Shown here one piece after another: positions 28,530-51,189 of a DNA stretch of 64,000 nt. Each line of letters begins with the position of its first letter. The first letter of the stretch is position 1. Source of the DNA: Duganella zoogloeoides (GTDB lineage Bacteria; Pseudomonadota; Gammaproteobacteria; Burkholderiales; Burkholderiaceae_D); contig NZ_CP140152.1 in NCBI RefSeq assembly GCF_034479515.1, positions 2,108,001 to 2,172,000 on the forward strand. Reading direction: 5' to 3'. The translations under genes and the position numbers were made by a program. The notes beneath the pieces were generated by a model, which worked only from the letters and a program-made list of their open reading frames with translations, was not told where the DNA came from and made no database searches.

Positions 28530-31500
28530 ATGCCGCGATTATTCAGCCACTTTTTGCAGGCGTGGGCCGAGCGCCGCCGCGCGCGCCGCCGCCAGGCCAA
28601 CCTGCGCACCGGCGACCGGCTGCGTGCGCGGCCGGAACTTGCGCTAGTGGCTAACCGCGCTGCCGCCGTGGCGCTGCCATCAAGCCGCTCCGCCTGGCTG
28701 TGGACCACGTTGGCCGTGTTGCTGGCGCTTGTTGGCGGCGCGCTGATCGTGGGCCATGCGCGCCACCTGGGCGCTGCCGCACCGGCGCGCTCGACGCAGC
28801 CGGTCGATACCCTGCGCACCGTCTTGCCCGGTGCCGCCTTCACCGTGCCGGAACGCGCTGGCGCCACCACCAGCCTGCATGCCGACGGCGCGTTGCTGGT
28901 ATTGGCCGGCATGGAGGCTGCGCCGGTGGTGCGGGTGGATTTGTGCAGCCAGTTACGCAGTCCCGCTCATCCTGGCGATGCGCGCCTGCTGCCGCTGCGC
29001 CTGGGCGAACGGTTTGCCGACGTCGAGCGCCAGGTGGCTGATAATCTCGCGTCGGGTACGCCGGCCGCGCTGCGCAATGTGCTGCTGGTGTCCGACAGCG
29101 GCGCGGGCCTCGACGCCATGCCGCAAGTGCGTATCGAAGGCAATGCCCGTGCCGATTTCGCCGATCCGCTGGCCGAGCCTCTGAGCCTTTCGTGGCGCAG
29201 CCGCCAGGGCCAGGCGCGCTGGATCGGCGACGCCAGCCTGGGCCAGGTGGAGCAGGGCGCATCTGGTCAGGTCGCGCTACGCCGGCAGGGCTGGTTGCTG
29301 TGGGGCGCCGCCTCGGCGCTGCGGCTGGAGCGGCGCGCCAATATGCTGTGCCCGCGCGCAGGAGAACTGCTGGTGCAATTGTACCGGCGCGCCGCGCCTG
29401 CGGCCGTCGATGCGGCCACCGCCCTGGTGGTGGCATTTCCCGCACGCGGCGCTGCGGTGCGCACGCGTCTTGCACCCGGCAGTTACCGGGTGCCCGCCGG
29501 CGCCGCGCCAGTGCTGGAAGACCAGGCCCTGTTTGGCGCCCTGCAAGCGGCCGGCCTGCTGCGGCTGACCGCCGCCGGCGTGATCGACCTGGCGCCACGC
29601 GACTTGCCGCAATGGCTGGCCGCCAGCCCGGCCGACCGCGTGGCGCAGCTGGACGACTGGCGCCATATCGCGCCCGGCGCGGTAACCGACAAGCTGTTCA
29701 AGCGCCTGTACCAACAGGCCGACGGCGCATACGTGCGGCAGCAGGTCGATATCTTCAACGGTGAACGGCGCTTGCTGGCATGGCGCCTGCGTGGCGATGC
29801 CTCAGCGGCGCTGGAGTGGCGCGCCAGCGTGGATGGCGGCGGGCGGGGTGGCAGCAGCGGTGACAGCGGCCCGGTGATGGTGGCGACCACCACGCGCATG
29901 CCGGTGGCAGCGGCGCGCCTGTTCGCTACCTTGCCGCAAGGTTGGCAGCCGTGGACGCGGGTGGCACGCTGGCCGGCAGCGGGCGAGGGTAGTGCTGGCG
30001 GCAACGGCAACGGCAACGGCAACGGCAACGGCAACAGCAGGCCGGCGCCGCTGGTTCGGCTGGCCGTGAACTTGCCGCAAGCGGCAACTGGCGGCGAGGT
30101 GCTGCGCCTGCTGGTGGCGGGCACGGTGGTCGGCAGCAGCGGCGCCGCCATGCGCGCTGTTCCCGCCTGCACCGGACGCGCCTGCACTGGTCCCGGCGAT
30201 GTACAGGAGGTGTCGCTGACCTTGCAGACTGGCGTGCGCGAGGTGGCGATCAATGTGCGCCCGCTGGCCTTCAGCGCACCGGACGACGAGCAGTATCGTC
30301 ACCTGCGCGTGGCCGGTGGCAAGCTGGCATGGCAGCCGCTGGCCGGCGGCGCGTCGGCTCCGGTCGCCGCGCCGTCGCCGGTGCGCTTGTCCGACCGCCA
30401 CGGCGTGCCGCTGTGGAAAGATGGTGCGCCCACCGAAGCTGCCAGCGCCGCCGGCCTGGCGCCGTTGCTCGGGCTTGGCCCGGAACACGCCAGCAGCGTG
30501 GCCGGCATGCTGGCCCGGTTGCCGACGGCCGGGGCGCCAGTGACGGCCACGCTGACGCTCGACCTGCCGTTGCAGGCGCTGAGCCAGCGCATCCTCGAAT
30601 GCGTGGGCATGCGCCAGGGCCGCTGGACCGGCGCCGGCTGCGCGGACGGGCCGGTGGTACAGCGTATATCGCAAGCGCGCCGTGCCGGCCTGGTCATCCT
30701 CGACACCGAAACCGGCGACGTGCTGGCAGCGGCCAGCGGCGGCGGCGGCGAGGTCAATGCGGCCAACTGGACCGAAGCGCGCGACCACGACCGCACCAAT
30801 CCCGCCCGCAGCGCGCTGCGTCTGCCGGCCTTGCAGCACGACGGCGGCGCGCACCAGAGCCCCGGTTCCACCTTCAAGGTGATCAGCGCGCTGGGGCTGG
30901 AAATGGCAGCGCAAAAGGATCGCCAGCTCGATGCGCTGCTGGCCGGCTTGCCACTGCCAACCATCAACGCGCTGGCGCGCCAGCGCGGCTTCGGCTTTCA
31001 GACCGGCTCCCCCACGTATCCGCAGGAGCCCCGGCAAGCGCGCATCACCAACTACCGCGAGCAGGGCCTGGACCGGCGCGCGCAGGATGGCCGGCTGGGA
31101 CTGGCGCAGGCGCTGACTTACAGCCTCAATACCTGGTTCGCCTGGGCCGGCGAGTTGAGCGACCGCAGCCTGTTCGGCCGGTCCGACGGCGGCGCGCCCG
31201 GCGTGCAGGCGCTCGACGCCGATGCGCTCGACACCGTACGGCCCATCGTCGCGGCGGCGCACCGGCTCGGCTTCGAGCAGCCGGTGCGGCTCGACGGCGG
31301 CCTGCTGCCATCGGACTTCGACTGGCGTACCTGGGATGCGCTGCAAGCCACGCCGGCCCATATCGACACCATCCACAGCCGCCACGAACTGCGCCAGATG
31401 GCGATCGGCCTGCGCATGCAGGTCACGCCGCTGCACATGGCGCTGGCTTCGGCGGCGGTGGGGCAGGGCCGGCTGGTCGTGCCCCGGCTGCTGCTCGATC

Positions 31501-50224: not shown

Positions 50225-51189
50225 CACGCCGCCACCGCCGTCAATCCGCACGCCTGCGCGACAGCATCCAGCATGCGGCTGATCTGCAAGGCATGGCGGG
50301 GGCGCTGGGCCGGATCGCCATGCAGCAGCGCGCGCAGCAGCGCCACGGCCGGGTCGCGCGCGGCAAGTGGCAGCAGCGATGCGAAACGTGCTTCTTCGTC
50401 GGCGTGCAGCGTGGCGGGGATGGCGCCGCCATGGGTGCGCCGCAGCACGTCGGCACCGGCCGTGTGGTGGGCGCGGTAAGCGTGGCCGCAATCGCTGCAA
50501 AAGCGCAGCGCCTGGCCGCCCGTGATCAGAAAATAGAACATGGCGCCCAGCGAAAAATAGTCGCTGCGGGCGCTGCTGGTGTAAGCGCCATCAATGGGGA
50601 AAAACTGTTCCGGCGCTTGCCAGTTGGCGGTGCCGGCGTACGAATGCTGGCGCGCTTCGCCCAGCAGGCGGTTGGTGCCGAAGTCGGCCAGCTTTACCGT
50701 GTTGCGCTGGCGGTCCACCAGCACGTTGGCCGGTTTGAGGTCGAGGTAGCGCCAGCCGTACTGGTGGACCTTGGCCAGCGCCTGGTTGATCTGCGCCAGC
50801 CATTCCAGCGCGCGCGTGATCGTTAGCTGATCGGCGGCGTCGCGCAGCGCCGTCATGTGCTTGCCCAGGTCGGTGGACATCAGTTCGAGCGCCAGCACCG
50901 GCAAGCCCTGGTGCCAGCCACTGTCGAGCAGGCGCACAATGTGGCGGCCATCCCAGGGCGCCAGCGACTGCAGGAAGGCGATTTCGTTGGCGGCGCTGCC
51001 GGTCCAGCGGTCGCGCTGCGCGGGCTGGGCGCGGTCCATCTGCTGCTGGTTGATCAATTTGACCGCCACGTCGCCGGCGCCACGCGGGCCGCTGGCGCGC
51101 CATACGTGGCCGTAGGCCGAGCCGCCGATCTGCTCACGCAGCCGGTAATGGCCCCGTTCCATCGCGATGATTGCGTCTGCTGTCGTCAT
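50224..51189 (-). CDS. Hanks-type Ser/Thr protein kinase
   Basis: A 321-residue soluble kinase. The glycine loop is IGGSAYGHVWRA, the catalytic Lys is in DVAVKLIN, the catalytic loop reads YLDLKPANV (His replaced by Tyr, Arg by Leu, catalytic Asp kept), and the Mg-binding motif is ADFGTNR. The activation segment continues to GTANWQAPEQF. A Cys/His group (FCSDCGHAYRAHH) lies in the C-lobe and might bind zinc. There is no membrane segment, unlike PknB. It begins the minus-strand set with FtsW-like, FHA-like, SH3 and PP2C genes, all overlapping or nearly so. The ATG at 51189 has a GGGGGGA purine tract as ribosome-binding site. Confidence 0.88.
   Translation of the reverse strand: MTTADAIIAMERGHYRLREQIGGSAYGHVWRASGPRGAGDVAVKLINQQQMDRAQPAQRDRWTGSAANEIAFLQSLAPWDGRHIVRLLDSGWHQGLPVLALELMSTDLGKHMTALRDAADQLTITRALEWLAQINQALAKVHQYGWRYLDLKPANVLVDRQRNTVKLADFGTNRLLGEARQHSYAGTANWQAPEQFFPIDGAYTSSARSDYFSLGAMFYFLITGGQALRFCSDCGHAYRAHHTAGADVLRRTHGGAIPATLHADEEARFASLLPLAARDPAVALLRALLHGDPAQRPRHALQISRMLDAVAQACGLTAVAA

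Follow-up and report, generated by a model that had tools for sequence, protein, structure and literature searches.

We analysed a 64,000-nucleotide stretch of the Duganella zoogloeoides genome (G000:C1:2108001-2172000, hereafter the window, whose numbering is used throughout; the genome is one contig of 6,321,842 bases), in which a penicillin-binding protein (PBP) and an FtsW/RodA-like SEDS protein are encoded together with kinases, a phosphatase and FHA-type proteins. Between positions 28530 and 51189, 13 close-packed genes form two convergent operons, separated by a pirin gene. The coordinates and the close packing given by an initial annotation of the sequence proved right and its two facing operons were borne out; the pirin gene had been missed. 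The genes are as follows, the plus-strand operon being read downwards and the minus-strand operon upwards from the kinase at 50224-51189.

28530..31868, plus: class-B-like PBP, 1112 aa (Pfam Transpeptidase 55.8 bits, cut-off 22.1)
31973..33313, plus: 446-aa conserved protein, C-terminus helix-turn-helix-like by eye only
33310..33963, plus: 217-aa conserved protein, no Pfam match
33967..35220, plus: 417-aa conserved protein, SPFH likeness not established
35217..36221, plus: 334-aa conserved protein, with an unproven, though possible, Ser-Lys fold of S16/Lon type
36332..38620, plus: SPFH/Band_7 protein with zinc ribbons, 762 aa (Band_7 35.2 bits, cut-off 23.6)
38637..41021, plus: kinase-FGE protein, 794 aa (Pkinase 140 bits, FGE-sulfatase 201 bits; Pfam, on a longer frame)
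41492-42442, between the operons: pirin gene
42538..44097, minus: FHA protein with an N-terminal Cys/His motif, 519 aa (FHA 23.7 bits, cut-off 20.7)
44246..45403 (start 45403 or 45247), minus: PP2C-type phosphatase (NCBIfam Stp1 E 2e-9, below cut-off)
45400..46017, minus: membrane protein with a C-terminal SH3_3 domain (30 bits, cut-off 27) and one hydrophobic segment by hydropathy
46029..47747, minus: 572-aa protein with an N-terminal domain, a low-confidence linker (243-353) and a predicted FHA-like C-terminal domain
47744..50224, minus: SEDS protein, 826 aa (Pfam PF01098 64.3 bits, cut-off 26.4)
50224..51189, minus: soluble Hanks-type kinase, 321 aa (Pkinase 109 bits, catalytic residues intact)

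Neighbouring frames overlap by 1 bp (kinase 50224-51189 and SEDS) or by 4 bp (SEDS and 46029-47747, 31973-33313 and 33310-33963, 33967-35220 and 35217-36221, and also SH3 and PP2C provided that the latter starts at 45403), and the patterns of GC content at third codon positions favour the annotated frames over the frames overlapping them. An inverted repeat with 16-nt arms ending in A/T runs and inner 8-nt arms, located at 42450-42532, also separates the convergent operons and is probably a two-way terminator.

The PBP comprises one transmembrane (TM) segment (54-80, by hydropathy), a long N-terminal region and a C-terminal transpeptidase domain, which was its sole Pfam match; with no glycosyltransferase domain the protein falls into class B. 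Its motifs SPGSTFK, S-x-N and KTGT (GKTGT in the window) were invariant in all 10 aligned rows, including those of two genomes outside the family, G251 and G852, and together with the Pfam score they confirm the large transpeptidase predicted from STFK, SLN and KTG. A six-base tandem repeat of 6.8 copies lies inside the gene (29999-30039) and encodes a Gly-Asn run that is absent from the aligned relatives. The SEDS assignment was likewise upheld by the Pfam score. From its N-terminus, the protein comprises a TM segment, a putative FHA-like domain spanning about 90-345, further TM segments and the SEDS core, which contains D707. The catalytic Asp of the SEDS superfamily resides in a large outer loop, in a TDF motif. 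D706/D707 and QPVExAK were invariant in 15/15 rows, and D707 aligns with the Asp of RodA1, RodA2 and FtsW of the same genome. The outer domain, overlooked in the initial annotation, was modelled with a pLDDT (predicted local distance difference test) of 90.5 over residues 66-347, and the predicted fold appears FHA-like. This presumed outer domain is unlikely to read cytosolic phosphothreonine and is therefore more likely a protein-contact module. Foldseek alone returned no match at E 0.001 for this model or for that of the 572-aa protein, the first rows for the two models being aromatic amine dehydrogenase and cyanuric acid hydrolase.

Genome-wide, four FTSW_RODA_SPOVE and nine Transpeptidase matches were obtained, and the standard ftsW/ftsI and mrdA/mrdB genes that the initial annotation had proposed to look for are present outside the window. 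Two MrdA-RodA pairs score above the equivalog thresholds of NCBIfam (MrdA 764.8 and 761.7 of 455 bits; RodA 403.2 and 399.2 of 336.7), as does an FtsW adjoining murD at 4.95 Mb (386.1 of 337.5), and an FtsI-type PBP near this FtsW in the dcw region scores well, yet below its cut-offs. The window pair shares with these RodA-MrdA and FtsW-FtsI sets the combination of a SEDS protein and a class B PBP, the catalytic Asp and the Ser-Lys, S-x-N and KTG motifs, but it scores far below the equivalog cut-offs (SEDS 62.2 of 337.5 bits for ftsW and 53.8 of 336.7 for rodA; PBP 56 of 455 for MrdA/PBP2) and its PBP belongs to a clade of its own. Although the Pfam classes are identical, it is thus extremely improbable that the window genes are no more than the cell's housekeeping FtsW/FtsI or RodA/MrdA, and we rejected this explanation because complete wall-synthesis sets were found elsewhere in the genome. 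In the region of about G000:C1 475600-482000 (L135), the MrdA-RodA pairs stand in tandem, followed by an RlpA-type gene.

Both Hanks-type kinases of the initial annotation were confirmed by Pkinase matches, and they account for two of the four such matches in the genome. The smaller one retains K44, E69, D150, K152, N155 and D169-F-G in 15/15 rows; the larger consists of a kinase domain, a charged middle and a C-terminal FGE-sulfatase domain that had escaped notice, with no TM segment by hydropathy. The PP2C prediction held: the profile scores are below cut-off (16.1 of 24 bits in Pfam), yet the DGxGGH, GDSR, DG and DN motifs were invariant in 17/17 aligned rows. The membrane SH3 protein was also verified, by its SH3_3 match and its hydrophobic segment. 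As for the two FHA-type proteins claimed earlier, 42538-44097 was substantiated by Pfam, and a search for FHA across the genome gave two other places without this one among them; 46029-47747 has no FHA match in Pfam and no convincing match in a sequence search of the PDB, and the predicted model of its C-terminal domain appears FHA-like.

Whether the set is kept together, a check that the initial annotation had asked for, was answered by the relatives, in which the genes are not scattered. When species genomes were scanned with the SEDS protein of the window, 80 loci were kept, each cut at 10 kb on either side; 79 of them are titled with the name of Oxalobacteraceae or of one of its genera, and one is labelled Pseudomonadota only. 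Within this 10-kb cut, the SEDS gene was present in 80 loci, the 572-aa protein in 79, SH3 in 77, the kinase in 75, FHA and PP2C in 73 each, kinase-FGE in 44 and SPFH in 13. The kinase, SEDS, 572-aa and SH3 genes occur together in 72/80 loci, in all 72 ordered within 7.5 kb, and 67 of these add PP2C and FHA. Among the loci retrieved, the closest relative with a species name was Duganella phyllosphaerae (L023 and L083; Oxalobacteraceae, Burkholderiales, Betaproteobacteria), whose best tblastn pieces were 55-97% identical, those of SEDS 82 and 94%. In some relatives the gap between SH3 and PP2C holds inserted genes, transporter- and acetyltransferase-like by eye, that seem unrelated (10 loci viewed, some for other gaps).

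Searching with the PBP recovered 22 of 116 genomes of the family, four of which (genus g27) matched through the transpeptidase domain only, at E about 1e-4; the other 18 are spread over four genera. Neighbourhoods were fetched for 13 of the 17 other PBP-bearing genomes (G045, G003, G091 and G108 were left out). Gene order and strand were kept in 13/13, over a span of 20.7-34.0 kb, and all 13 genes were found in 12/13, the remaining one, G106, having no PP2C match and a PBP split over several frames (G106:C1:168122-171183); a pirin homologue occurs in 7/13. Compared with one relative (G089), the ratio of non-synonymous to synonymous substitution rates (dN/dS) was 0.15-0.48 in 12 genes, PP2C being excluded, as point estimates with no confidence limits, and these genes are under purifying selection in this comparison. 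With order and strand retained in every fetched relative and such dN/dS values, the arrangement is more than chance.

Outside the family, one rearranged version of the set was recovered, in G251, along with two distant pairs of adjoining PBP and SEDS genes, in G852 and G905. Across the order, a profile of the 572-aa protein matched 7 of 399 genomes; six are members of the family, and the seventh, G251, comes from another family of Burkholderiales. In G251 the PBP (34% over 1085 aa) lies together with the genes for the kinase, SEDS and the homologue of the 572-aa protein, these three forming one set divergent from the PBP and followed by an SLT+LysM lytic transglycosylase; PP2C, AAA and caspase-FGE genes are close by. 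This was the only full-length case among 43 genomes of its family, and the congener G1004 is without the locus. Beside the G251 version, L188:4563-6716 encodes a caspase-like domain fused to FGE. In G852 (72% GC), which was picked by its long frame and its PBP-SEDS adjacency, an oversized PBP adjoins a SEDS protein whose N-terminal part is long, and G905, of the same order, carries a similar pair on an 11.45-kb contig. Adjacent to the G852 pair lies a 1179-aa protein (L187:852-4391) that looks Hsp70/actin-like by eye and has no Pfam match. The common core of all versions is the SEDS-PBP pair.

A phylum-wide PBP search reached 92 of 398 genomes at E 0.001, with nearly full-length matches only in G000 and G018, and a class-wide search with a wider PBP profile found 1 of 369, our own genome, with at most two candidates scored per genome and misses therefore possible. 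Profile A10 includes the G852 and G251 rows, whose scores with it are by construction, and does not include G905. The plasmid search with the window SEDS protein gave no match. A transpeptidase tree was built from 75 rows, for which 62 of 65 generic loci were usable, L157, which is G852, was excluded deliberately and one identical row was removed. A branch (98/92) separates the 11 family rows from MrdA and FtsI of the same genome. The rooting is weak (45/33), long branches lead to G251, G852 and G905, and a long generic row, L140, joins beside the family.

Based on these data, we favour, as probable though with clear reservations, the reading that the locus encodes an accessory peptidoglycan synthase together with a phospho-signalling module of its own. 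Computed directly are the gene set, its linkage, the conserved active-site residues and the separate housekeeping copies. A dedicated wall-synthesis system, as the initial annotation had surmised and as the linkage and the separate housekeeping copies support, fits because a SEDS protein that retains the catalytic Asp, a class B PBP with an intact active site and phospho-signalling proteins come together, with a lytic transglycosylase in G251. We infer the enzyme activities, complex formation, the direction of phosphorylation, the topology and the trigger in the following scheme. The SEDS protein, as the predicted glycosyltransferase, and the large PBP, as the transpeptidase, would act together as a single synthase in the membrane. 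The two large outer domains of this synthase, one of them FHA-like, may bind each other or contact a partner in the wall or envelope, and would serve for sensing or binding in the periplasm. On the cytoplasmic side, phosphorylation of partners would fall to kinase 50224-51189 and kinase-FGE; the FHA proteins (46029-47747 and 42538-44097) would recognise these marks and either recruit the synthase or gate it; and PP2C would reset phosphorylation. The SPFH and SH3 proteins may position the synthase at the membrane; it would operate alongside the divisome and elongasome and be called on conditionally. Phosphorylation control of wall synthesis is thereby suggested by gene content.

Several observations weigh against this reading. 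The locus was found in 9 of 11 genomes of the same genus, G040 and G067 having no PBP, and the PBP is therefore dispensable; such patchy presence is suggestive of a conditional role. The SEDS core is without other usual residues, such as the Trp of the RodA GxRRW motif, and could be inactive. FGE, SPFH and the caspase of G251 are partners also known from signalling or conflict systems, and no kinase set was visible near the pair of G852 (8 proteins scanned) or of G905 (its 11.45-kb contig). A rival reading is that a sensing or conflict-type system, with kinase-FGE and SPFH here and AAA and caspase-FGE in G251, has captured a SEDS-PBP pair and uses it, as effector or for repair, when the envelope is attacked, in which case the locus would not be a growth machine. 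FGE is fused to a kinase in the window and to a caspase domain in G251, the locus is patchy outside its home family (one of the 43 genomes above), and an excerpt of PMC7159879 lists kinase, FHA, Band-7 and FGS-type domains among conflict-system effectors. The mix of kinase, FHA, Band-7 and caspase domains is indeed common to the window-type loci and the NTP-dependent conflict systems of that excerpt, but the excerpt mentions no FtsW/RodA, other SEDS or PBP component. The order is stable over four Oxalobacteraceae genera, unlike typical islands, SEDS has no plasmid match, and PADLOC, run on 10 of the 13 proteins (SEDS, SH3 and the 217-aa protein excluded), produced generic kinase matches and one weak PP2C match, on which grounds a PADLOC defence-system identity was dismissed. 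We consider the conflict origin unlikely.

The divergent SEDS core with its missing Trp motif and its FHA-like outer domain might also mean that the pair is catalytically altered, handling another polymer or serving as a scaffold or sensor; the invariance of the catalytic Asp and of all three PBP motifs and the lytic transglycosylase adjoining the pair in G251 argue otherwise and make this quite unlikely. The initial annotation compared the locus with the actinobacterial fhaA-fhaB-pstP-rodA-pbpA-pknA-pknB genes, linked in one locus according to an excerpt of PMC6554272. The linked protein classes (SEDS, class B PBP, Hanks kinases, PP2C and FHA) are indeed the same, and so is the apparent logic of kinase, reader, phosphatase and synthase; the 572-aa protein is laid out like FhaA, a low-confidence linker joining an N-terminal domain to an FHA-like C-terminus. 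Orthology, in contrast, found no support: the window kinases reach 190.2 and 82.3 of 450 bits against PknB_PASTA, with no PASTA in Pfam and no TM segment, 16 members of the 572-aa family gave no FhaA_N Pfam match at E 10, and SEDS and PBP carry large extra domains on top of their low equivalog scores. That the locus is a diverged true descendant of the actinobacterial one, gained by transfer, is hence very improbable. It differs further in being accessory, in adding SPFH, FGE, SH3 and proteins of no recognised family, and in its two convergent operons, and it is best read by analogy as working like the pstP-rodA-pbpA-pknAB system, yet not as a member of it.

In type VI secretion, the PpkA-PppA-Fha module likewise places a kinase, a PP2C and an FHA protein in one proteobacterial locus. 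These three classes are common to both, but Pfam scans recognised no secretion-apparatus gene among the window's 13 proteins. Kinase, phosphatase and FHA control of wall synthesis has been studied mainly in actinobacteria and firmicutes. The initial annotation knew of no proteobacterial description, and our literature searches gave none among the matches listed, subscription literature being mostly outside their coverage. If the accessory-synthase reading is true, the locus offers a compact, non-essential system in an environmental proteobacterium, in which each step could be deleted without killing the cell, and a fourth pair of SEDS and class B PBP in one genome, whose extra outer domains may show how such pairs are switched. 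More tentatively, it could represent a separate SEDS-PBP lineage in Pseudomonadota beside FtsW, RodA and SpoVE, defined by a large outer FHA-like SEDS domain and an oversized PBP. Its control modules would vary, with kinase/PP2C/FHA accompanying it in Oxalobacteraceae and in G251 and an Hsp70-like neighbour taking their place in G852, and it would serve on-demand wall remodelling or repair.

For the remaining plus-strand genes, the earlier assignments stood in part. Of two proposed SPFH-type proteins, 36332-38620 was supported by Band_7; it has a long, charged, helical-looking middle and zinc-ribbon cysteines at both ends, the Cys being invariant in 11/11 rows. SPFH likeness of 33967-35220 was not established, since none of 12 members matched SPFH in Pfam and hhalign against its SPFH neighbour gave a probability of 0.24%. 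Nor was the S16-like protease domain established for 35217-36221, where S240 and K286 are invariant in 14/14 rows and the best alignment to Lon_C spans the Lon Ser-Lys stretch, yet at an hhalign probability of 0.38% (E 0.16); a PDB search by sequence brought no convincing match. The 446-aa and 217-aa proteins are conserved in 13/13 loci. For the former, no Pfam family was matched in the window member, scattered single-member matches appeared among 13, and a PDB search by sequence showed no convincing relative.

Upstream of the minus-strand operon, 51281-51739 encodes a glycine-rich YMGG-like protein and 51891-52421 is a GNAT gene; they flank the kinase in 69 and 40 of the 80 relatives' loci, respectively.

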